Shown in pieces: positions 9,005 through 25,125 of a stretch of 64,000 nt of DNA; within the stretch, counting starts at the first letter, position 1, and each line of letters starts with the position of its first letter. The translations under genes and the position numbers were made by a program. The notes beneath the pieces were generated by a model that was given only the letters and a program-made list of their open reading frames with translations, was not told where the DNA came from and searched no databases. The DNA is from Erysipelotrichaceae bacterium. GTDB lineage: Bacteria > Bacillota_I > Bacilli_A > Erysipelotrichales > Erysipelotrichaceae. The DNA lies in NCBI GenBank assembly GCA_030694975.1, contig JAUYTU010000017.1, positions 1 through 64,000 on the forward strand, in the 5' to 3' direction.

Positions 9005-9013
9005 GTGATGACA

Positions 9014-10747
9014 TTGAGTCTAGAGAATACGTTTAACTATATTCTGCAAATGCAAGCGATTAGTACAGTATTTCAACCCATTGTTTCTCTTGAAACCGGA
9101 GTCGTTTTCGGTTACGAAGCTCTTAGTCGCAGCACTTCCTCAAATAAATTAAACATCGAAGACCTTTTTAAAACCGCTCTTCAAGAAGATCGACTCTGGG
9201 AACTTGAAAAACTATGTCGGACAAAAGCTCTTCAGAATGCCGCATTACAGCGCATTTCAAGCGTTCTTTTTATAAATGTGGATGTTAACATCATACATGA
9301 TTTGAAATTCCAATCTGGTTTTACTGTGGAACGACTAAAGGAATACGGCATAAGCCCTGAAAATGTTATTATAGAGCTAACCGAAAAAAGTGCAATACAG
9401 GATATAAATGGCTTTATTACCTCTGTTAAACACTATAAAAGACAGGGATTCAAAATCGCCATTGACGATTTTGGCTCAGGCTATTCTGGGCTCAACCGAG
9501 TTTGCGAATTATCTCCCGAGTTTCTGAAGATTGACATGAATCTGATTAGAAACATCAATACTGACCCCATTAAGTGTTCGGCCGTAAGTTCAACAGTTGA
9601 GTTTTGTCGACAAGCAGGTATACGGGTAATCGCGGAAGGAATTGAGAGTCTTGAAGAACTAAAAACAGTCATCCGTCTAGGCGTTGAATTTGGACAAGGA
9701 TACTTTATCAGTCGACCCCATAGTGAATTTAAAGATATTCCAAAAGACTGCCGAGATACTATCATGGAGAACTACTCAAGAACATGTATTCATCATCGAT
9801 TGTACTCTAGTAATCGAGTGGTCGATCTTGGAATCTCGAGCCCTACGGCCTCCATGAATTCATCCGCGTTAGACCTGTTTGAAAAGATGAAACATGACTC
9901 AGAACTCTCGGAATTTTTCGTCGTCGATGAAAACGGTACCGTTCGAGGAATCATACCTCGCTATCATGTCTTCGAGAGATTTGGAGGTCAATATGGCTAT
10001 GTTTTAAGTCAGCGAATGCATGCTGAAGATATCATGCTCACAGATTTTTTAGTCGTAGAAGAACATCTTCCCGTTGAGAAAGTATCTGATTTAGCGATGA
10101 ATCGTAATTTGAATCGCGTTTATGAGTCGATTGCCATATCGAGTAACGGAAAATATCTAAATTCCGTCACAGTTCGAGATCTTTTATTGGCATCAATAAA
10201 TTTGCAATTACAAAAAGCAACAGATGCCAATCCATTGACTAATCTTCCCGGAAATCATGAAATTCAGCGTATGATCGAGACTATTTTTAGCCAGAATGTC
10301 CCTTGGTCCATCATCTATATCGATCTTGACAACTTTAAAGCCTACAATGATGCCTATGGCTTCTCCAAGGGGGATGCAATGCTCAAAGCATTGGCAGATG
10401 TGATGAGACGATGTGCTGGTAAGAAAGACTTTCTTGGGCATATTGGCGGTGATGATTTTGTTATAATCAGTCCTGACCACGAAGTTTTGCATATATGTCA
10501 ACATATTACCAATGAGTTTCACAGAGATATCGAACAACTTTATTCTACGCACGATTGGCGTCAGGGAGTTTTCGTATCAAAGAATCGAAGCGGATTTCCA
10601 CAAAGTTTTATTATTGCTTCTCTTTCAATAGCCGTCGTCACTAATCGTGATCATCAGCCAAAAACAATTGATGAACTTTCTAGTCTTATCGCAAATACTA
10701 AAAAACAATGTAAAATGCAGTTAGGAAATGCAATCGTTATTGTATGA
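9014..10747 (+). CDS. EAL-CBS-GGDEF c-di-GMP signalling protein
   Basis: A 577-residue cytosolic protein. An EAL phosphodiesterase domain lies at about 15-245, with EALSR, IELTEK, IDDFGSGYS, FLKID, IAEGIES and GQGYFISRP, so all catalytic positions look present. A CBS pair at about 270-395 may sense an adenine nucleotide. The C-terminal GGDEF domain (about 405-575) has GGDDF in place of GGDEF and no RxxD inhibitory site. It most likely degrades c-di-GMP, with a modified cyclase domain that may bind GTP and regulate. The start is uncertain: the GAGGTG site at 9002-9007 best serves TTG 9014, whereas GTG 9005 and ATG 9008 overlap it. Confidence 0.88.
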   Translation: MSLENTFNYILQMQAISTVFQPIVSLETGVVFGYEALSRSTSSNKLNIEDLFKTALQEDRLWELEKLCRTKALQNAALQRISSVLFINVDVNIIHDLKFQSGFTVERLKEYGISPENVIIELTEKSAIQDINGFITSVKHYKRQGFKIAIDDFGSGYSGLNRVCELSPEFLKIDMNLIRNINTDPIKCSAVSSTVEFCRQAGIRVIAEGIESLEELKTVIRLGVEFGQGYFISRPHSEFKDIPKDCRDTIMENYSRTCIHHRLYSSNRVVDLGISSPTASMNSSALDLFEKMKHDSELSEFFVVDENGTVRGIIPRYHVFERFGGQYGYVLSQRMHAEDIMLTDFLVVEEHLPVEKVSDLAMNRNLNRVYESIAISSNGKYLNSVTVRDLLLASINLQLQKATDANPLTNLPGNHEIQRMIETIFSQNVPWSIIYIDLDNFKAYNDAYGFSKGDAMLKALADVMRRCAGKKDFLGHIGGDDFVIISPDHEVLHICQHITNEFHRDIEQLYSTHDWRQGVFVSKNRSGFPQSFIIASLSIAVVTNRDHQPKTIDELSSLIANTKKQCKMQLGNAIVIV

Positions 10748-10796
10748 TTACTTCACTTAAGACATTGAATCAATGTATTTGCTCATTCGATCCTCT

Positions 10797-11747
10797 TCAT
10801 AATTTAGTTGATTCAGCGACATTGATAACAACTTTACCTTTAGCATGACCTTCCATGACATATTTTACAGCCTCACCTGTCTGCTCAAGCGAATAACTTC
10901 TGTCAATTATCGGACGAATCCGACCCGCAGTGACAAGATTCAAGATAAATTGCAAGTCGGCATGGTTGGGTTTGGCAGATAGAACTCGCAGTTTTTTATT
11001 GCCAGGAAATACGAACTTACCAAAGAAAATAGACTTGATCAATTGTGATAGTGATCCGCCAACAATTACAACTGTACCCTTTGAAGTCAGCGCACTCTTA
11101 TAATCGGATAAAGAATAGTTGCCATTTACTGCCAGAATAAGATCGTATTGTTTATTGCTTTGAGTGAAGTTCTTCTCATTGTAATTAATGATGTGATCCA
11201 CATTGAGATCCTTCATAATCGCTACATTACTCTTGCCACAGACCGCTGTTACTTCGGCTTGAAAATGTTTTGCAAGTTGCACAGCAAATGTACCGACGCC
11301 ACCTCCGGCACCACAGATCAAGACTTTCTGACCCGGTTGAATGTTTCCTTTGTTACGCAGTGCCTGTAGCGCTGTAACGGATGACATGGGAATAGCTGAT
11401 GCTGTTTCAAAAGATAGGGATTTCGGTTTCAAAACTAGCGCACTTTCCACAACTGTGACATATTCTGCGAATCCGCCAAAGCCATGGGCAGATAAATCAC
11501 CCACGACTTCATCTCCGATAAAAAACTTCTTAACATTTATACCCACGGCTTCGACAACTCCGGCAATATCAGATCCGAAGATTTTATTCTTCGGAATTAT
11601 TCCCATCTTCATTGACCGAACATCCGCAGCATTAACTGATACAGAATGTATTTTTATGAGTACTTCGTTTTCTTTTGGGGCAGTTTTTTCTACTTCCTGT
11701 AACTTTAAGAGATCTTTATGACTTTTATCATAGATTATAGCTTTCAT
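10797..11747 (-). CDS. Zinc-independent MDR family NAD(P)H oxidoreductase
   Basis: A 316-residue medium-chain dehydrogenase/reductase of the quinone oxidoreductase branch. An N-terminal GroES-like fold (VLIKIHSVSVNAADVRS, FGSDIAGVVEAVG) is followed by a Rossmann NAD(P) site near residues 140-165 (VLICGAGGGVGTFAVQLA). The cysteines that hold the structural zinc in classical alcohol dehydrogenases are missing, as expected for quinone-reductase-like members. It follows an XRE regulator gene by 4 nt and is probably cotranscribed with it. The substrate is unknown; quinone or enone reduction is the family norm. Confidence 0.85.
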   Translation of the reverse strand: MKAIIYDKSHKDLLKLQEVEKTAPKENEVLIKIHSVSVNAADVRSMKMGIIPKNKIFGSDIAGVVEAVGINVKKFFIGDEVVGDLSAHGFGGFAEYVTVVESALVLKPKSLSFETASAIPMSSVTALQALRNKGNIQPGQKVLICGAGGGVGTFAVQLAKHFQAEVTAVCGKSNVAIMKDLNVDHIINYNEKNFTQSNKQYDLILAVNGNYSLSDYKSALTSKGTVVIVGGSLSQLIKSIFFGKFVFPGNKKLRVLSAKPNHADLQFILNLVTAGRIRPIIDRSYSLEQTGEAVKYVMEGHAKGKVVINVAESTKL

Positions 11748-11751
11748 CGTG

Positions 11752-11976
11752 TCAGTCCCCTTTCACTTCGATATCAAATATCTCGTTAATCTTAACTTCA
11801 AATGCCACAGCAATTCGAAAGGCAAGTTCCAATGAAGGTGAATATTTGCCCGCCTCGATTGAAATAATGGTCTGTCTGGATACCCCAACTTTCTCAGCCA
11901 GCTGTTGCTGAGTCATTTCATTGGCAAAGAAGCGAAACTTTCTGATTTCATTGGTAATCACAATTTTTTTAGCCAT
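11752..11976 (-). CDS. Small XRE-family transcriptional regulator
   Basis: A 74-residue protein consisting of one Cro/C1-type helix-turn-helix (MTQQQLAEKVGVSRQTIISIEAGKY, residues 21-45) and a short tail ending FDIEVKGD. It belongs to the minimal YozG-like regulators commonly paired with a membrane protein. Here its start overlaps the end of such a gene by 8 nt, and the oxidoreductase gene follows. GAGGG gives a good ribosome-binding site. The three genes probably form one operon that this protein controls, perhaps through the near-palindrome TACATAATGTATGTA close to 12541-12556. Confidence 0.88.
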   Translation of the reverse strand: MAKKIVITNEIRKFRFFANEMTQQQLAEKVGVSRQTIISIEAGKYSPSLELAFRIAVAFEVKINEIFDIEVKGD

Positions 11977-12475
11977 GTTTTATCCCTCGTCTATAAAAGT
12001 ACAACTGTGTAAATCCTTCAAATAGCGATCCTAAACTAAAGGATGCAAACATGACGTTGATCATCACAACTGCAGAGTAGTCTAGAAAGATGAGTAATAG
12101 TGCCAAAACAAATCCGATGCCTGCTACAATGAAGCCGACCATGCTGGACTTAAGTTCAATCAGTTTATCCATTTCATCTGTAACCATTTCTGACTGAATG
12201 GATTTCTCAATTTCTTTATCATCACAATCCTCATTGTTCACTTTTGCTTTTACGGCAATCGTTACTGAAAGTAAGATATGAAACACGATTTGAATGATGA
12301 TTGTAGAAACAATTCCGATGGCAATAAACAGAAGCATTGCGCCTGCCCAAAATTTCAGATCACCTTCAATGACCACGCCAGACTTATATTTTCCGTACGT
12401 ATATAGAGAATAAGCGCTTAGAATGATTAAACCGGATATGATAGAAACGATAGTTCTCTTCTCTTGATATGACAT
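11969..12475 (-). CDS. Four-helix membrane protein paired with XRE regulator
   Basis: A 168-residue integral membrane protein with four predicted hydrophobic helices (about 10-30, 45-70, 112-132 and 138-158) and a charged, Asp/Glu-rich cytoplasmic loop between the second and third. It resembles the loosely defined DUF2178-type proteins found next to small XRE regulators, but I do not assign a function. The start at 12475 has GGAGA upstream; a longer frame to 12526 lacks one. It leads the operon with the XRE gene and the oxidoreductase. Confidence 0.65.
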   Translation of the reverse strand: MSYQEKRTIVSIISGLIILSAYSLYTYGKYKSGVVIEGDLKFWAGAMLLFIAIGIVSTIIIQIVFHILLSVTIAVKAKVNNEDCDDKEIEKSIQSEMVTDEMDKLIELKSSMVGFIVAGIGFVLALLLIFLDYSAVVMINVMFASFSLGSLFEGFTQLYFYRRGIKHG

Positions 12476-12574
12476 AAAGTATTCTCCTTTGTTTTTATGT
12501 ACATATTGTAATATATTCCGTACCATATGTCAAATATATTATACATAATGTATGTAATTATTTACTTAAAAAGA

Positions 12575-12596
12575 AAAATCCCTGATTGGGGATTTT
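12575..12596 (-). terminator. Terminator after the alpha-amylase gene
   Basis: AAAATCCC (12575-12582) pairs with GGGATTTT (12589-12596); the minus strand continues TTCTTTTT. Confidence 0.8.
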
Positions 12597-12604
12597 ATTG
12601 AAAT

Positions 12605-14095
12605 TTAGCTTTCATCTTCTTTTGAAGCATCTTTGGTCAAAACGTTATCTCTGACCCATACGGATACCTGTCCTGTGTTACACGGAAATAATCCATTACC
12701 CTCATTGTCGATTGTGATCTTAACCGTTTGATTGCCGGTGTAATCCGCATAAACCGCGCCTTGATTAATGGAGCCGACATTCATCTTCTTTTCGCCACCA
12801 GAGCCATTGCTCATGATAACTGCACATCCATAAGGATGTCCTTCATCGCCCATTCGTACCCAACCGATGATATCCGTATGATCTAAGTAATCCACTTCTT
12901 CACCATACGCATGGTAAGTTCTTATATACATTAGTTTATCAATGACTGACTGATGTCCTTCAATAAATTCAGGTCCTTTAATCCCATAGTAATCCCCGTA
13001 GAAAATCATCGGATAACCGTCTTTGCGAAGCAAAATCAATGCATAACCTAATGGCTTAAACCATGGTTCTACCCAGGATTGTAAACCTTGTGTCGGTTGT
13101 GAGTCATGGTTGTCCACAAAAGTCACGGCATAGTCCGGATGTTCTTTTACCAGCGTATCATCAAAGATCTTCCTCATATCATAGTAACCACCGGAGGTAC
13201 TGGCTCTGTGCATATTAAAATGGAGGTTCACATCAAACAAATCCATCTCAAATCCGATATTATTCAAGTAGTCATTAAGTTCACCACTGCTCTGACTCCA
13301 ATATTCGCCTACAAAGTAGAAGTCTGTTCGGTATTCACCTCTGATTTTGCGAATCAGATCGCGCATAAAGTAATCATTGATGTGTTTAACCGCATCAAAG
13401 CGGAACCCATCGACACCGGTTTCATTAACAAACCAAAGCGCCCACTTTCGGATTTCTTCAACAACTTCGGGATGTTTATAATCGATGTTATTGAACATTA
13501 GATAATCAAAATTGCCATTCTCAAAATTAACACCTTGTGACCAACCTTTATTTATGCCCTCTATCCTGTAAATTGCACGTTTTTTATCTCTTTCATTGAA
13601 GTCCACTCCGGAGAAATGGGTCCAATTCCACTTGAACTCAGAGTACTGATTGCCGCGTCCTGGAAACGTAAACTTTGTCCAAGATTCAATTTCATAAGGT
13701 TCCGTGATTACTTTGTTGCGATCGGACGGATCTACTTCCACCACTTTAAACGTTTCCTTCTCATCGCCATTGGCCTTATGATTCAGCACAACATCAACAT
13801 ATACTTGGATGTTGTATTGGTGAAGTGCTTTAATAGCCTCCAAAAGTTCTGCTTTTGTCCCATACTTCGTTTTAACAGATCCCTTCTGATCGAACTCGCC
13901 TAAATCATAGAGATCATAAATGCCATATCCCGTATCAAAAGGTGATGTACCTTTGAAAACCGGTGGGATCCAAACCCCGGTAACACCCATTTCTTGCAGA
14001 TGTTTGGCATCCTCTTTCAGATTAATCCACAGTCTGCTATCAAGTCCATCCATAAACCATTCAAAATATTGAAACATTATTCCGTTGCGAGCCAT
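12605..14095 (-). CDS. Cytoplasmic alpha-amylase, GH13
   Basis: A 496-residue GH13 alpha-amylase of the GH13_5 type (like AmyS of bacilli), cleaving internal alpha-1,4 glucosidic bonds of starch, glycogen or maltodextrins. The four conserved regions are present: VDVVLNHKA, GFRFDAVKHI with the Asp nucleophile, FVGEYW with the Glu acid/base, and FVDNHDSQP. No signal peptide is seen (the protein starts MARNGIMFQYFEWF), so it acts inside the cell, probably on maltodextrin or storage glucan. It is monocistronic with AGGAAA as ribosome-binding site and a 16-bp palindrome in its leader. Confidence 0.93.
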   Translation of the reverse strand: MARNGIMFQYFEWFMDGLDSRLWINLKEDAKHLQEMGVTGVWIPPVFKGTSPFDTGYGIYDLYDLGEFDQKGSVKTKYGTKAELLEAIKALHQYNIQVYVDVVLNHKANGDEKETFKVVEVDPSDRNKVITEPYEIESWTKFTFPGRGNQYSEFKWNWTHFSGVDFNERDKKRAIYRIEGINKGWSQGVNFENGNFDYLMFNNIDYKHPEVVEEIRKWALWFVNETGVDGFRFDAVKHINDYFMRDLIRKIRGEYRTDFYFVGEYWSQSSGELNDYLNNIGFEMDLFDVNLHFNMHRASTSGGYYDMRKIFDDTLVKEHPDYAVTFVDNHDSQPTQGLQSWVEPWFKPLGYALILLRKDGYPMIFYGDYYGIKGPEFIEGHQSVIDKLMYIRTYHAYGEEVDYLDHTDIIGWVRMGDEGHPYGCAVIMSNGSGGEKKMNVGSINQGAVYADYTGNQTVKITIDNEGNGLFPCNTGQVSVWVRDNVLTKDASKEDES

Positions 14096-14112
14096 TGATC
14101 ATTTCCTGCCTT

Positions 14113-14128
14113 TCAGTGATATCACTGA
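14113..14128 (-). promoter_or_regulatory. Perfect 16-bp palindrome before the amylase gene
   Basis: TCAGTGATATCACTGA is a perfect inverted repeat lying 18-33 nt upstream of the amylase start. It differs from the LacI motif of the beta-glucan locus, so a different dimeric regulator could bind, most simply a maltose-type repressor (inference). Confidence 0.5.
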
Positions 14129-14317
14129 GAAGATTCATATTATCTCTTTTATATTTATATCTTAAAAAGATAGAATCATTTATAGAATGTTTGCCTTTAC
14201 CATTATACCACCATTCACACCTTATGAAGTCTATCAACGATTGATATTGATTGAGAGAACTTCAAATTGCCAAAAAAATAGCTCGTAAGCGATCTGGTAA
14301 CGCTTGTTTCTGCTTAG

Positions 14318-14872
14318 TTATCGATGAGTCCTTGCTTGACGTCTAGAAACATTTAATACAATCAGAAGATGAAAAATACTGATAAATGTAGATTCTATAA
14401 TCAAAATCGATGCATACAGAATGTTATTATCACTCGAAAGTTTGAGCATCATAACATGCAAGGGTGTCTGAAAAATGATATCCGTAAGTCTGAGTCCAAG
14501 ATAAAGAAGAAGAGCATTTATTAGTAGGTATAGAATAATCAGTAAGTTACGATGGCGAGGTCCTCTTTGAATCGTTGAAACGAGAATCAAAAGTAGAAAG
14601 GCCATCATTAGATAGATGATCATAAAGATTATTTGGGTGAGAAAGAAAGCCAAGGTTAGCATCAACAATGAAATGCCAGCCGCAAAAGTGTACTTCCATG
14701 GCTGTTTGATCGTCATTATGACCATAACAATTGGAATGATAAGTGCTTGTAGTAAACTCAGCGGTCCCCTGAAGATCATCAAACTTAACAAGCACAGTGC
14801 CAGCGTCATACCCGATAATGCAATGTAATGAGTGTTTCTTCCATTGAACTGAGTTCCGTTTGCTTTTTTCAT
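14318..14872 (-). CDS. Polytopic membrane protein in the B12/GGDEF operon
   Basis: A 184-residue membrane protein with about five hydrophobic helices after a short polar N-terminus (MKKANGTQFNGRNTH). I do not recognise the family. It is the third and last gene of an operon: its ATG overlaps the stop of the GGDEF gene (14869-14872), a sign of translational coupling. By position it may be an output or anchoring partner of the c-di-GMP circuit, but the sequence shows no known ligand motif. No clear terminator follows in the 220 nt up to the amylase leader. Confidence 0.7.
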   Translation of the reverse strand: MKKANGTQFNGRNTHYIALSGMTLALCLLSLMIFRGPLSLLQALIIPIVMVIMTIKQPWKYTFAAGISLLMLTLAFFLTQIIFMIIYLMMAFLLLILVSTIQRGPRHRNLLIILYLLINALLLYLGLRLTDIIFQTPLHVMMLKLSSDNNILYASILIIESTFISIFHLLIVLNVSRRQARTHR

Positions 14873-15927
14873 AGTTCTTTAACTTGGTGATAAAGATTCT
14901 TATCGAAGCGCCGAAATGTATTTTTTCCTAGTTTTTTCGCTTGATACATGGCAAAATCAGCGTATTCTATCAAGTCATAAATTTCAAATGTATCCAGACC
15001 ATAAATTGCCATCCCTGCACTTAGGCGAACAGGAATCGATGCTCCCTCGATCAGCGCGGGTTCAAAGAGGACTCTTATCTCAATTTCTTTCCAGATGTTC
15101 AATACGTCAACTTCTTCAATTGAATCAAAACCATGTATATATAAACCAAATTCATCTCCGGATATGCGCATGCAAATTTTGTTATTTAAATCAAGCTGTT
15201 GCAATCTGTTCGAAAATATTTTAAGAAAATCATCTCCTGCCCGATGCCCGTATGTATCGTTGATTCTCTTAAAATTATCTATATCAATGAACGTGAAAAT
15301 CCCTAATTTCTTAGGCTGATTGCGTATACATATTTCAATTTCTTCCCTATATTGATATCGACTGACTAAACCGGTCAGTTCATCCTTTACCAACCGATTG
15401 TTTAAATAACTGTTCAATCGATTTATCTCGGCATTAACCCTACTTAATTCTCGCTGTGTATTAATCATTCGATTGTTCAATTTTTGAATCTGCTCAAACT
15501 GCATACGAATGGTACTTTCTCTTTTCCCAGTATTTTCACTTTCAGAAGTTAGGATATTTCTCATGAACTCATTAATAATGTATCCATTGTGACTATCCGC
15601 TTGCTCTGAAGTCAAAATGTCACCATCCAATCCTAAGATCAATAATTGATTTTCAATTGACAGCATTCTGACAGAAACAGCTGACTGAGGACTGCGTAAG
15701 TGCAGCTTTATCGATCGGGTAAGTATGTTTTTTGTCTCAACCGCATCACAGATCAGTTGGTCAAGGTCATGTAGATCAGATTCATCGAAAAGATCTGACA
15801 AATGCTTTTGAAAAGGCGAAACAAAGTATACCGGTTGATACCAGTAAACTTTTATTATTTGACCTTTCTTATCGCACTTTATCAAAAACGTTGTCAATGA
15901 TGATTGCATGTTCTCACTCTCAGTCAT
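14869..15927 (-). CDS. PAS-like sensor diguanylate cyclase (SGDEF)
   Basis: A 352-residue soluble protein. Residues 1-110 look like a PAS-type sensor domain (LTTFLIKCDKKGQIIKVYW). Residues 138-177 form a likely coiled coil, and 180-350 a GGDEF domain with DELTGLVSRYQYREEIE, FIDIDNFKRINDTYGH and the signature SGDEF at 256-260, where the first Gly is Ser. There is no RxxD inhibitory site. This arrangement is normal for an active cyclase driven by signalling through a coiled coil. Its gene overlaps the upstream B12-binding gene by 8 nt and the downstream membrane-protein gene by 4 nt, so the B12 protein is its probable input partner. Confidence 0.88.
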   Translation of the reverse strand: MTESENMQSSLTTFLIKCDKKGQIIKVYWYQPVYFVSPFQKHLSDLFDESDLHDLDQLICDAVETKNILTRSIKLHLRSPQSAVSVRMLSIENQLLILGLDGDILTSEQADSHNGYIINEFMRNILTSESENTGKRESTIRMQFEQIQKLNNRMINTQRELSRVNAEINRLNSYLNNRLVKDELTGLVSRYQYREEIEICIRNQPKKLGIFTFIDIDNFKRINDTYGHRAGDDFLKIFSNRLQQLDLNNKICMRISGDEFGLYIHGFDSIEEVDVLNIWKEIEIRVLFEPALIEGASIPVRLSAGMAIYGLDTFEIYDLIEYADFAMYQAKKLGKNTFRRFDKNLYHQVKEL

Positions 15928-17029
15928 GCTGATTAGCTAATGAAGCTTTTTTTAGTGCACGGAATTCTTTATGACTCCACTCAATGAGCTCAGCCGCTGT
16001 ATCTGAATAAAAATCAATTGGCCACTTTTCCCAGATTCGATTTGTCATTTTAAACGCGTGACCGCCAACAGCAATTTTGACCTCAGGATACTGACTTCTG
16101 ACAGCTCTCACCGTACTTTCACATTCAAGCAAATGCTGTGGCATTGTGACAGAAAGTGCAATCAAATCGGGCCGATGTTCAGAAATGGCATGTAGTAATG
16201 CCTTTTGAGGTACGGCTGCTCCTAAATAATAGGTATCCCAACCGTCGTACTCAAACAAATCAGAAAGCATTCGACCGCCAATTTCATGCAGTTCACTGCC
16301 AACCGCACAGCAGATGAGGCTTCGATGATTTCGAGGTTGTAAAAACAGAACATCATAAAATTGTGACATTACTGTCTGAGTCACGGATGAGCAATAATGC
16401 TCTTTATCAACTGTCAGCTTACTTTGGTGCCAGAGTCGGCCCACTTCGTACATGACTACATTGAGGATGTTTTCATAAATGTTGAGGATTGAAACACCTT
16501 GCTCTCTTGCACGACTTATAACAGCATAGGCTTCTCTGGTATTGCTGTGCAACATTGCATCCAAATACATCTTGCGATATTCGCTGAAAGGACCTTGCAT
16601 AAATTGATCTGACAAAGGTACGTCTGTAACAACTTCTTCGGTAATTTCTATTGCCCTTTGAATATAGCGTTGGGCAGACTCAATTTCATCAACATTAAGT
16701 AATTCTGATGGAAGATCTTTTAAAGTTTTGGATAGAATACGATAATGATCTTTCATTTGAGTCATAATTCGAACGCGATCCAAATCTGGCATAAGATTGC
16801 AGAGCAATTCATTTAGCCAACGAGCATAACTCGTAAAAATTTTCTCATCAGATAAATGTACGGCTGTCATAAGAAAACTAATATTATATAGAATGTCCTC
16901 ATACATCAGTTTTTTACGGCGATCATCATATTCAAGTTCTAACTTTGGATCGTACGTGAAATGATCGGCGTATACTTTCTGAGCCAGTTGCAAGACACGC
17001 GGATCATTTAAACTTGTCATCAAACTCAT
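15920..17029 (-). CDS. CarH-like B12-binding sensor without DNA-binding domain
   Basis: A 369-residue soluble protein. Residues 1-135 are helical and of unknown type. Residues about 145-230 form a B12-binding cap (four-helix bundle) containing WHQSKLTVDKEH, the Wx9EH motif (W200, E210-H211) that marks adenosylcobalamin photoreceptors of the CarH/LitR group. Residues about 237-340 form a Rossmann B12-binding domain with ELHEIG, the ExHxxG motif whose His (248) coordinates cobalt, followed by SVTMPQHL and VAVGGHAF-like strands (here IAVGGHAF). No MerR helix-turn-helix is present. The start at 17029 has AGGAGG 8 nt upstream, better than ATG 17035 or 17065. It heads an operon with a GGDEF gene. 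Light, oxygen or B12 status are possible inputs. Confidence 0.85.
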   Translation of the reverse strand: MSLMTSLNDPRVLQLAQKVYADHFTYDPKLELEYDDRRKKLMYEDILYNISFLMTAVHLSDEKIFTSYARWLNELLCNLMPDLDRVRIMTQMKDHYRILSKTLKDLPSELLNVDEIESAQRYIQRAIEITEEVVTDVPLSDQFMQGPFSEYRKMYLDAMLHSNTREAYAVISRAREQGVSILNIYENILNVVMYEVGRLWHQSKLTVDKEHYCSSVTQTVMSQFYDVLFLQPRNHRSLICCAVGSELHEIGGRMLSDLFEYDGWDTYYLGAAVPQKALLHAISEHRPDLIALSVTMPQHLLECESTVRAVRSQYPEVKIAVGGHAFKMTNRIWEKWPIDFYSDTAAELIEWSHKEFRALKKASLANQHD

Positions 17030-17065
17030 TATCATTTCCTCCTTTAGTAACTTAATATCGAACAA

Positions 17066-17447
17066 ATAGATTTTAGTATTTCAAATAATTATATTGAGAT
17101 CTTTTACTTATTATACCATGTCTGTTTGCTATTATCGAAATTCCGCGAATTTAAGATTATACTCTCTATCTCGTTATCTGACAAATTTAAGTCCATGTGA
17201 TATACTTTGTTTGACAACAAGTGTGTTGAAGAATAAGTGCCGATTTAGGCAATAATTTTTCGAGACACGAGATATGCACCCTATTTTCAGTACTTATCAT
17301 ATAACATGTAAATATGAAATCAATCTTCAACCTAGTGCAATTTATTCAACTGTTTTGATGATTTTTTACCTATAACTTAAAAATTAATACTGTTAAAAAT
17401 TTAGTTCAGGTTTGAACTTAAATACGAGGTATTAGGGAGGAACTGGT
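17066..17447. other. Divergent promoter region of the signalling island
   Basis: This 380-nt AT-rich stretch separates the B12-sensor operon from the hybrid c-di-GMP gene. On the minus strand TATAAT boxes occur at 17110-17115 (in GGTATAATAAG) and 17156-17161, either of which could serve the B12-sensor operon. On the plus strand TTGACA occurs near 17212 but without a convincing -10 box. No open frame or strong hairpin is seen. Confidence 0.5.
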
Positions 17448-19328
17448 GTGGAAATGAATAAACTGAAAATATTGGTAATAAGTGATAGTGCTACAAATGC
17501 AAAGTATTTTGAGAATACGATTTCTGAAGCTCTTCCTCAAACGGAAGTTTATATAACCGAAGACAGAGCAGATGCTGTTTTACTTGCAAAAAAAAGAGAA
17601 CCGGACGTAATTCTGATCGATATTTCCATAACGAAATCAGAAAGTTTGAAAATCAGTCGTATAATCAAGAAAGATAAAACCTTGCACATGACTCCGATAC
17701 TTTTTGTCACGGATCTGTCAGAAGATCGGAGTTTGCGCGATAAGGCTATAAAAGCTGGCGCAGAAGCTTTTCTGTTAAAACCCATCGATGATGCTATTTT
17801 GATAACGCAATTAATGGCCATGGCAAAAATCAAAGTGCGCAACATCCTTATTAACGCACAAAACTCAAAACTTGAAACACTAGTTGATCGTCGCACAGGA
17901 GATTTGAAAAAGGAAATTGTGAATCGAAAGAATCTTCAGATAGAATTACGTACGAGCGATGAAATTTTTAAAACATACATTGAGAAAGCGCCGATTGGTA
18001 TTTTTGTTACTGATGCAACAGGTAAGTACGTTGACGTCAATACGATGGCATGTAAACTTATGGGGCGACCAAGAAAAGAAGTCTTAAAACTCTCTCTCTC
18101 CGATTTTTTAATACCTTCTGAATTTGAAAAAATAGCAAAGGAATTCAAAAAGCTTACGGGTAAGAAGATTATAGATGTAGAATACCGCGTCAGAAAAAAG
18201 GACAGTCCGGATTACTGGATCAGTCTTCGTGCAGCAAAGATTAGTGACAACCGCTTTATCACTTTCTGTACAGATATTTCTGCTCGAAAAGAGAAAGAAG
18301 CCAAAGTCGAATATCTCAATTACCACGATTCGTTGACCGGTATAAATAATCGGAAATTTTATGAGGAAGCCATCAATAAACTCGATAACGAAGCGAATTT
18401 TCCTCTGTCTGTACTAATCTGTGATGTTAACGGACTGAAACTCACAAATGACGCTCTGGGTCACGCGGCGGGCGATCGAGTCCTAATTGAAACATCAAAA
18501 ATGCTCAGTAAGCACTTGAGAAAAGATGACGTCTTGGCACGTGTTGGTGGTGATGAATTTTCGATAATATTACCCAAAACAAACAGTCATGAAGCACAAA
18601 AGATTGTTAATAGTATTACCACAGCTTGCCCGGCGTTGAATGTAGATTCCTTAGCTAAGTCGGTTAATATTAGCATCTCCATTGGTTTTGCAACCAAAAC
18701 AAAAAAAGCTGAATCATTTTATGATATCAGCCAATTGGCCGAGGATTACATGTTCAGAAGAAAACTTCTTGAACGCGAGAGTTTCCACAGCAAATTGCTT
18801 GAAACGCTGCGGATAACTTTATTTGAGAGAAGCCATGAAACAGAAGAACATACCTCAAGAATGGCAGTTTTATCCACGAAATTGGGCAAAGCCATGGGTT
18901 TGAGCAATGATGACCTTAACAATCTCACCTTACTATCCTCCTTACATGATATCGGCAAAATAAATATTGATGACAGTATTCTGACAAAACCAGGAAAGTT
19001 AACTGAGGATGAATGGGTTGAAATGAAAAAGCATCCGGCAATCGGATACAGAATTGCGATGGCTTCATCCGAACTTCGCTCAATCGCTGAACTGATTTTG
19101 TGTCACCAAGAGCGTTGGGACGGCAAAGGTTATCCTCAGGGATTGAGTGGTGAAAACATACCGCTACTTTCAAGAATTATTTCAATCGTTGACGCTTATG
19201 ATGCTATGACGCATGATCGTTCGTACCGAAAAGCTCTTTCAAAAGAAGTAGCCATTAATGAAATATCTGTTAACGCAGGCAGTCAATTTGATCCTGAAAT
19301 CGCACAATTGTTTGTATCTTTGATGTAA
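17448..19328 (+). CDS. Receiver-PAS-GGDEF-HD-GYP hybrid protein
   Basis: A 626-residue cytosolic protein with four domains. Residues 6-125 are a response-regulator receiver (phosphoacceptor Asp58, Lys111) and 165-285 a PAS domain. Residues 288-425 are GGDEF with an intact GGDEF (367-371) and RxxD inhibitory site (358-361). Residues 455-626 are HD-GYP with HD at 500-501, HPAIG and GKGYP at 559-563, the c-di-GMP phosphodiesterase form. It can in principle make and degrade c-di-GMP under control of an unidentified histidine kinase. The start is GTG 17448, 7 nt after GGGAGG; ATG 17454 is too far from it. It is divergent from the B12-sensor operon. Confidence 0.92.
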   Translation: MEMNKLKILVISDSATNAKYFENTISEALPQTEVYITEDRADAVLLAKKREPDVILIDISITKSESLKISRIIKKDKTLHMTPILFVTDLSEDRSLRDKAIKAGAEAFLLKPIDDAILITQLMAMAKIKVRNILINAQNSKLETLVDRRTGDLKKEIVNRKNLQIELRTSDEIFKTYIEKAPIGIFVTDATGKYVDVNTMACKLMGRPRKEVLKLSLSDFLIPSEFEKIAKEFKKLTGKKIIDVEYRVRKKDSPDYWISLRAAKISDNRFITFCTDISARKEKEAKVEYLNYHDSLTGINNRKFYEEAINKLDNEANFPLSVLICDVNGLKLTNDALGHAAGDRVLIETSKMLSKHLRKDDVLARVGGDEFSIILPKTNSHEAQKIVNSITTACPALNVDSLAKSVNISISIGFATKTKKAESFYDISQLAEDYMFRRKLLERESFHSKLLETLRITLFERSHETEEHTSRMAVLSTKLGKAMGLSNDDLNNLTLLSSLHDIGKINIDDSILTKPGKLTEDEWVEMKKHPAIGYRIAMASSELRSIAELILCHQERWDGKGYPQGLSGENIPLLSRIISIVDAYDAMTHDRSYRKALSKEVAINEISVNAGSQFDPEIAQLFVSLM

Positions 19329-24783: not shown

Positions 24784-24859
24784 TGGTGGAGCTGAAGGGA
24801 CTCGAACCCTCGACCCCAACGCTGCCAGCGTTGTGCTCTTCCAGCTGAGCTACAGCCCC
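24784..24859 (-). tRNA. tRNA-Ala (GGC)
   Basis: A 76-nt cloverleaf with acceptor GGGGCTG/CAGCTCC, encoded CCA end, TTCGAGTC T-loop and anticodon loop CTGGCAG giving anticodon GGC for the Ala codon GCC. It is the last of four tRNA genes in one cluster. Confidence 0.93.
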
Positions 24860-24866
24860 ATAATCT

Positions 24867-24943
24867 TGGTCGGGACGACAGGATTTGAACCTGCGACCTC
24901 TTGCTCCCGAAGCAAGCGCACTACCAAGCTGTGCTACGTCCCG
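24867..24943 (-). tRNA. tRNA-Pro (CGG)
   Basis: A 77-nt cloverleaf with acceptor CGGGACG/CGTCCCG, encoded CCA, TTCAAATC T-loop and anticodon loop TTCGGGA giving anticodon CGG for codon CCG. Confidence 0.92.
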
Positions 24944-24960
24944 GCATAAACAAAAAAAAT

Positions 24961-25036
24961 TGGCGCGCCCGACAGGAATCGAACCTGTAGCCTTTTGAAT
25001 CGGAATCAAACGCGCTATCCGTTGCGCCACGGGCGC
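24961..25036 (-). tRNA. tRNA-Arg (CCG)
   Basis: A 76-nt cloverleaf with acceptor GCGCCCG/CGGGCGC, encoded CCA, TTCGATTC T-loop and anticodon loop TTCCGAT giving anticodon CCG for codon CGG. Confidence 0.92.
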
Positions 25037-25049
25037 ACATATATAAAAA

Positions 25050-25125
25050 TGGTGGACACTAAGGGACTCGAACCCCTGACCCTCTGCACGTCAAGCAGAT
25101 GCTCTCCCAACTGAGCTAAGTGTCC
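25050..25125 (-). tRNA. tRNA-Val (GAC)
   Basis: A 76-nt cloverleaf with acceptor GGACACT/AGTGTCC, encoded CCA, TTCGAGTC T-loop and anticodon loop TTGACGT giving anticodon GAC for codon GTC. First of the cluster in the direction of transcription. Confidence 0.92.

Follow-up and report, generated by a model that had tools for sequence, protein, structure and literature searches.

A probable photocobilin encoded beside a separate diguanylate cyclase in an Erysipelotrichaceae bacterium

Introduction

Three genes on the minus strand of a 64,000-nucleotide stretch of an Erysipelotrichaceae genome (the window; source assembly of 2.19 Mb in 42 contigs, 99.6% complete) raise the question of what a B12-binding sensor does when its gene adjoins that of a diguanylate cyclase. 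The original prediction described a CarH-type B12 sensor whose input, either light or B12 status, seems to feed c-di-GMP synthesis, and it offered this link as a novelty. The principle had already been shown with AbDPcob, a fused photocobilin-cyclase reported in 2024, in which the cyclase is more than 10-fold faster in light (PMC10979010); what stands as new is the split pair arranged in trans. Standalone photocobilins alter the activity of a separate, non-cognate diguanylate cyclase in vitro, some photocobilins have the B12 domain at the C-terminus, and the function of the standalone members has been called 'less clear' (PMC10979010). The best explanation of the present locus, with a probability of about 0.68, is an operon in which a photocobilin would place a separate cyclase under light control.

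The sensor protein

The sensor gene and the features within it are as follows.

15920..17029, minus strand: photocobilin-type sensor gene, 369 aa (ORF, Pfam, PDB sequence matches, AF2 model)
16631..17002, minus strand: phycobiliprotein/photoglobin-like helical domain, residues 10-133 (profile of 42 homologues, model)
16895..16897, minus strand: D45, corresponding to SasPcob Asp270 and to the Asp of the phycobiliprotein CxRD motif (alignment, profile)
16817..16819, minus strand: W71, corresponding to SasPcob Trp296 (alignment)
16364..16573, minus strand: B12 cap four-helix bundle (B12-binding_2), residues 153-222 (Pfam, invariant W200/E210/H211)
16427..16432, minus strand: W200-H201 (alignment with 5c8a/3whp)
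15989..16321, minus strand: B12 Rossmann domain, residues 237-347, with lower ligand H248 (Pfam, AF2 model)

An AGGAGG ribosome site (17043-17038) lies ahead of the gene, and the chain runs from an N-terminal globin of the bilin type through the B12 cap to the B12 Rossmann domain. Pfam recognized B12-binding_2 (1e-12) and B12-binding (7e-19), and no DNA-binding family was among its matches, which bears out the prediction that such a domain is lacking. Where CarH/LitR proteins carry a MerR-type domain, a globin is found instead, and the NCBIfam CarH model reached only 42 of the 400 bits set as its cut-off. A sequence search of the PDB ranked the photocobilins 8j2w and 8j2x, then 8jbs and 8j2y, over CarH. 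The AF2 model (pLDDT 91.8, pTM 0.88) superimposed its B12 part on SasPcob at 1.7 Å over 204 columns (Foldseek). A fold unlike the CarH cap, which had been named as evidence against the prediction, was thus not what was obtained; the fold matches. Over its B12 part the sensor is only about 22-23% identical to characterised photocobilins, and this low figure counts against the main reading. The closest named sensor (73% identity) comes from a sediment MAG labelled Clostridiales; a genome of the host's own genus, L041, is labelled Erysipelotrichaceae, and no relatives were found on viral contigs.

The signatures of adenosylcobalamin (AdoCbl) photoreceptors that the prediction had read in this 369-residue protein are present. 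The W-x9-EH motif is formed by W200 (codon 16432-16430) and E210-H211 (codons 16402-16397, minus strand), and the E/DxH motif of the Rossmann domain reads E246-x-H248-xx-G251. Together with G197, G251 and G270, the residues W200, E210, H211 and H248 are invariant in all 56 homologous sequences. The light signature of CarH-like proteins has been given as GxxW, EH, GxxH and GxxxP (PMC11796333). GxxW (197-200), EH and GxxxP (270-274) occur in the sensor, and Ser245 stands where GxxH has its Gly; 16 of the 56 homologues have Gly there, and the Ser was counted against the main reading. H201 aligns with the second residue of the 'WH' pair in Thermus thermophilus CarH (5c8a/3whp), which we take to be His132. 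In CarH, His132 becomes the upper Co ligand after photolysis and is required for monomer formation (PMC10442372). Within the c-di-GMP clade, 30 of 35 sequences have His at position 201; Gln or Leu prevails there among sensors of the kinase-partner clade, and SasPcob has Gln. Two photochemical subtypes may therefore track the type of output, with His201 accompanying c-di-GMP partners and Gln most kinase partners.

The description as a CarH-type sensor was correct for the AdoCbl-type photoreceptor domain and incomplete for the rest of the chain, since the first 145 residues form a second chromophore-type domain, a phycobiliprotein-like globin, that had been missed. The PDB search gave a weak second stretch, residues 28-77 against the C-terminal bilin globin of SasPcob. 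With an E-value of 23 this stretch alone is not significant, so a profile was built from 42 N-terminal domains. The profile matched allophycocyanin beta (2e-5), 8j2y (8e-5), 8j2x/8j2w (9e-4) and many other phycobiliproteins. PF00502 (Phycobilisome) matched 14 of the 42 members (best 2e-10) and gave no match to the window protein by itself. Residues 10-133 are all-helical in the AF2 model; the domain order is reversed and Foldseek could not align both domains at once, so the globin assignment comes from the profile searches.

With the chain-to-paper numbering of SasPcob anchored at W61 to W200 and H108 to H248, the bilin-contacting D270 and W296 correspond by alignment to D45 and W71. W71 is kept in 56/56 homologues and D45 in 51/56, the exceptions being L062, L063, L065, L066 and L068. 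SasPcob Trp296 contacts both bilin ring D and the corrin, and the bilin Asp is dispensable in the photocobilin family, being His in AbDPcob (PMC10979010). The Cys place of the CxRD motif is occupied by M42, so a covalent bilin link is not expected there. On its sequence, the sensor is classed as a photocobilin, globin followed by B12 domains on one chain, rather than a bare CarH domain, and it is probably a light-sensing vitamin-B12 protein.

In L062, L063, L065 and L066, which belong to Lachnospiraceae-type genomes or other anaerobes, some from the gut, D45 is lost and the AdoCbl signature W/EH/H is kept, as if bilin function were being lost and B12 sensing were staying. The loss of D45 in these four sequences of the c-di-GMP clade was counted against the main reading.

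The cyclase and its pairing with the sensor

Downstream of the sensor gene the following features were found, together with a possible promoter on its 5' side.

14869..15927, minus strand: diguanylate cyclase gene, 352 aa, or 345 aa from the ATG at 15906 (GGDEF 6e-30, model)
15613..15894, minus strand: PAS-like adaptor domain, residues 12-105 (mixed alpha/beta in the model, homology to histidine-kinase partners)
15433..15477, minus strand: coil motif NNRMINTQRELSRVN, residues 151-165, a candidate sensor-docking or transmission helix (motif and plasmid searches)
14920..15384, minus strand: GGDEF catalytic domain with SGDEF motif (Pfam, alignment)
14318..14872, minus strand: third gene, 184-aa hydrophobic membrane protein (homologues 3' of the cyclase gene in 11 loci)
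17156..17184, minus strand: possible promoter TTGTCA-17-TATAAT 5' of the three genes (11/12 in a consensus scan whose total number of matches is close to chance)

The cyclase consists of the PAS-like domain, a long coil and the GGDEF domain. An alternative start, an in-frame ATG seven codons on (15906, MQSSLTTFL), is preceded by GAGAGTGAG and fits the homologues equally well. The 8-nt overlap that had been described between the sensor and GGDEF genes accordingly holds at the first ATG and turns into a 13-nt gap if ATG 15906 is used; the 4-nt overlap (ATGA) of the GGDEF and membrane-protein genes is real. The term 'PAS-like' agrees with the model and with Foldseek matches to PAS-GGDEF proteins, although no Pfam PAS model matches. 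The active-site residues D215, N223, D224 and G257-DEF260 are invariant in 23 homologues, and the RxxD inhibitory site is absent at its usual place. Since substrate and metal residues are present, the protein is predicted to be a diguanylate cyclase with an SGDEF variant. The protein of the third gene has no Pfam family; three of its homologues gave a weak match to DUF2232 (best E 0.0015), and a candidate homologue at L048, the Alkalibacter mobilis locus, was rejected as FTCD_C.

The gene order described for the window, with the GGDEF gene next to the sensor gene and the membrane-protein gene after it, is confirmed, and the genetic tie between sensor and cyclase proved to be conserved. A GGDEF-type ORF follows the sensor gene in 36 of 36 clade loci (L032-L067, of which some are truncated at the end of a contig and two repeat family genomes, L041 = L003 and L053 = L004), so the objection that homologues might not keep the GGDEF neighbour fails. 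These genomes are labelled Bacillota, Spirochaetota, Fusobacteriota, Synergistota and Mycoplasmatota, and the conservation of a split pair across several phyla is new. The invariance of the motifs in 56/56 sequences and the 36/36 pairing, when the 2.19-Mb genome has no more than 24 GGDEF genes, argue that neither is due to chance. Among 146 genomes of the host's GTDB family, the N-terminal domain of the cyclase occurs in only three, all with close, full-length sensors in the adjoining position; two others of this family (L005, L006) have divergent sensors with divergent GGDEF partners.

In Lachnospiraceae-type genomes the partners are GGDEF-EAL proteins, and in a sister clade (Bacteroidota, Thermodesulfobacteriota, Pseudomonadota and Paenibacillus) they are histidine kinases or hybrid kinases. 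The partner type follows the clades on the tree, with 7 changes against a shuffled mean of 25, where L095 and L101 are labelled kinase though their next ORFs have no Pfam match.

A module shared by the partners

The partners differ in output (GGDEF, GGDEF-EAL or histidine kinase) and yet share an N-terminal module that ends in a coil of the form NNELxNxQRxLxKxN, an observation that is new. The N-terminal regions of cyclases and kinases were found to be homologous over 158 columns (hhalign 99%, 4e-18), and the PAS-like part by itself gave 95%; a standard PAS domain from a neighbouring window protein, used as a control, gave 0.2% against the adaptor, that is, no match. The coil motif occurred in 71 of 79 partners against 2 of 3183 other ORFs, one of the two (L078) being a partner with a different start. 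As the motif letters came from the partner alignments, the figure of 71/79 is partly by construction, and a plasmid search is the more independent check. When a 36-residue consensus coil was searched against 72,556 plasmids, nine records were returned, all with a photocobilin-type gene directly beside the coil. Two Skermanella plasmid sensors gave no coil match, and the one inspected had no kinase or cyclase gene directly downstream.

At L076 a sensor of the kinase clade stands beside an adaptor+PAS+GGDEF protein, an exchange of output, and Paenibacillus kinases keep only the coil of the shared module. The coil is the one element common to all kinds of output enzyme beside the sensor, and for this reason it is likely to be a docking or transmission helix. 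Its co-occurrence with the sensor is co-inheritance and no proof of contact; on this evidence the coil ranks first among candidates for docking or signal transfer. Alternatively, the motif may be no more than a signal helix belonging to the partner, without a part in docking. In two Rufibacter loci (L095 6947-7516, L103 6921-7523), the sensor is followed by a short adaptor+coil protein in which no catalytic domain was found; at L095 this protein ends shortly past the coil, with no kinase ORF directly after it.

Cofactor supply

The host, an anaerobe, encodes one adenosyltransferase, of the PduO type, and a second corrinoid-protein-like gene. ALAD was not detected in the host; corrinoids must therefore be salvaged, and AdoCbl made from salvage is plausible. 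Neither haem oxygenase nor ferrochelatase was detected in the host. In the clade genomes surveyed, of which many are incomplete MAGs, ferrochelatase and PF14518 were each found in 0 of 29 and PF01126 in 0 of 35, the last being present in 4 of 15 other genomes. A search for HutW as a bilin source was negative, and TIGR04107 was rejected as such a source because it matches all genomes as HemN-like paralogues, none of them over the cut-off. It seems that the host would need to obtain any bilin externally or by some unrecognised route, and a conserved bilin pocket in a host without an obvious source of its ligand is new. A bilin from clostridia is known as 'bactobilin'.

Mechanism and alternatives

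The three genes would form one light-signalling operon. In the dark, the sensor would bind AdoCbl between W200, E210-H211 and H248 and assemble into CarH-like dimers. Green light would break the Co-C bond and change the shape and assembly of the sensor, possibly through H201 as a CarH-like upper ligand. The sensor's interaction with the separate cyclase at the PAS-like/coil region would shift in turn, so that the GGDEF domains pair differently and c-di-GMP output changes; in the model system, AbDPcob, the effect of light is activation. Given a supply of bilin, the globin domain would make the sensor responsive to red light as well. It is conceivable, with the odds against it, that the coil, with or without the PAS-like domain, is a portable plug by which one soluble B12/bilin photoreceptor drives a cyclase, a cyclase-phosphodiesterase, a histidine kinase or a hybrid kinase in trans, and that the bilin pocket of tetrapyrrole-auxotrophic anaerobes takes up a scavenged or unknown pigment, giving a light sensor made from two salvaged cofactors.

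The gut species of the clade live in the dark, which was counted against light as the input. The pair might instead sense the supply of AdoCbl, in which case the cyclase would respond differently to holo and apo sensor and photolysis would be incidental. The salvage of corrinoids by a host without ALAD, its single PduO-type adenosyltransferase and the gut habitat of relatives (Enterocloster, Blautia, Faecalicatena) fit such a role, and binding of AdoCbl alone lowers the cyclase activity of AbDPcob compared with the apo form (PMC10979010). However, all 56 sequences keep unchanged the residues by which the adenosyl group is held and its loss is coupled to break-up of the dimer, as do CarH and photocobilins, the bilin-type antenna domain is retained, and neither a cobalamin riboswitch nor another Rfam cobalamin element was found within the window, which makes the sensing of B12 status unlikely.

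It is less probable still that the protein is chiefly a reporter of some linear tetrapyrrole, exogenous or unusual, bound by the globin, and that the B12 domain serves as a partner site. The persistence of D45 (51/56) and W71 (56/56) in hosts lacking PF01126 (0/35), PF14518 (0/29) and ferrochelatase (0/29) would agree with it, but W71 may persist for its corrin contact, as with Trp296 of SasPcob, and D45 for structure, and AbDPcob works with weak bilin binding. A corrinoid protein of the methyltransferase type, or another metabolic B12 protein lying beside the cyclase gene by accident, is highly improbable: the B12 domains resemble MtbC/MtaC at the family level, but the sensor scores far under the family cut-offs (48 bits versus 215 for pyl_corrinoid), bears the signature of photoreceptors together with an additional globin, and is regularly paired with a signalling protein.

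Relation to known systems

The window sensor has its nearest parallel in SasPcob of Saccharothrix syringae (8J2W/8J2X; PMC10979010), also a standalone protein, which has an AdoCbl domain with the W/EH/ExH residues and a globin holding its bilin non-covalently. The bilin Asp and Trp are conserved in the window sensor. Unlike SasPcob, the latter has its globin first and H201 in place of Gln, its gene adjoins that of a cognate cyclase, and its host has no detected bilin source. AbDPcob (8J2Y; PMC10979010) resembles the window system in its inputs and c-di-GMP output, but it is one GGDEF-B12-globin chain with His for the bilin Asp, whereas the window system comprises two proteins, keeps the Asp, and has a cyclase with adaptor and coil. 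With CarH/LitR of T. thermophilus (PMC10442372) the sensor shares the B12 cap and Rossmann domains and the W-H, EH and ExH residues; it differs in the missing MerR domain, the extra globin and an output through a cyclase rather than promoter repression. Its N-terminal domain is homologous to phycobiliproteins (allophycocyanin beta), photoglobins and BBAG-2 globins (PMC10151467), including the Asp of CxRD. In contrast to phycobiliproteins, M42 replaces the Cys for covalent attachment, and the protein would be a sensor, not an antenna. The abstract of another paper, on photoglobins, reportedly mentions gene neighbourhoods with signalling domains.

The window system is thus read as a split form of photocobilin signalling in which the cyclase is cognate and the partners have a module in common. 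Of greater interest are the arrangement in trans, this module and a bilin pocket carried by a host seemingly unable to make tetrapyrroles. The target of a standalone photocobilin would be readable from the genome, as its operon partner is conserved across phyla. A short shared helix can be mutated, which offers a direct test of in-trans photocobilin signalling, and the coil could serve as a small tag for green- and red-light optogenetics. The question is also raised of what use a light-type sensor is to anaerobes, some of them in the gut, that seem unable to make its bilin.

Genomic surroundings

Three c-di-GMP proteins, the photocobilin partner among them, lie within about 10 kb (window 9005-19328). 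The other two are an EAL-CBS-GGDEF protein with a GGDDF motif (9005-10747) and a receiver-PAS-GGDEF-HD_5 protein divergent from the sensor gene (17448-19328). The 24 GGDEF matches of the genome are accompanied by only 3 EAL matches. Further along the window, four tRNA genes stand in a row on the minus strand (24787-25125).
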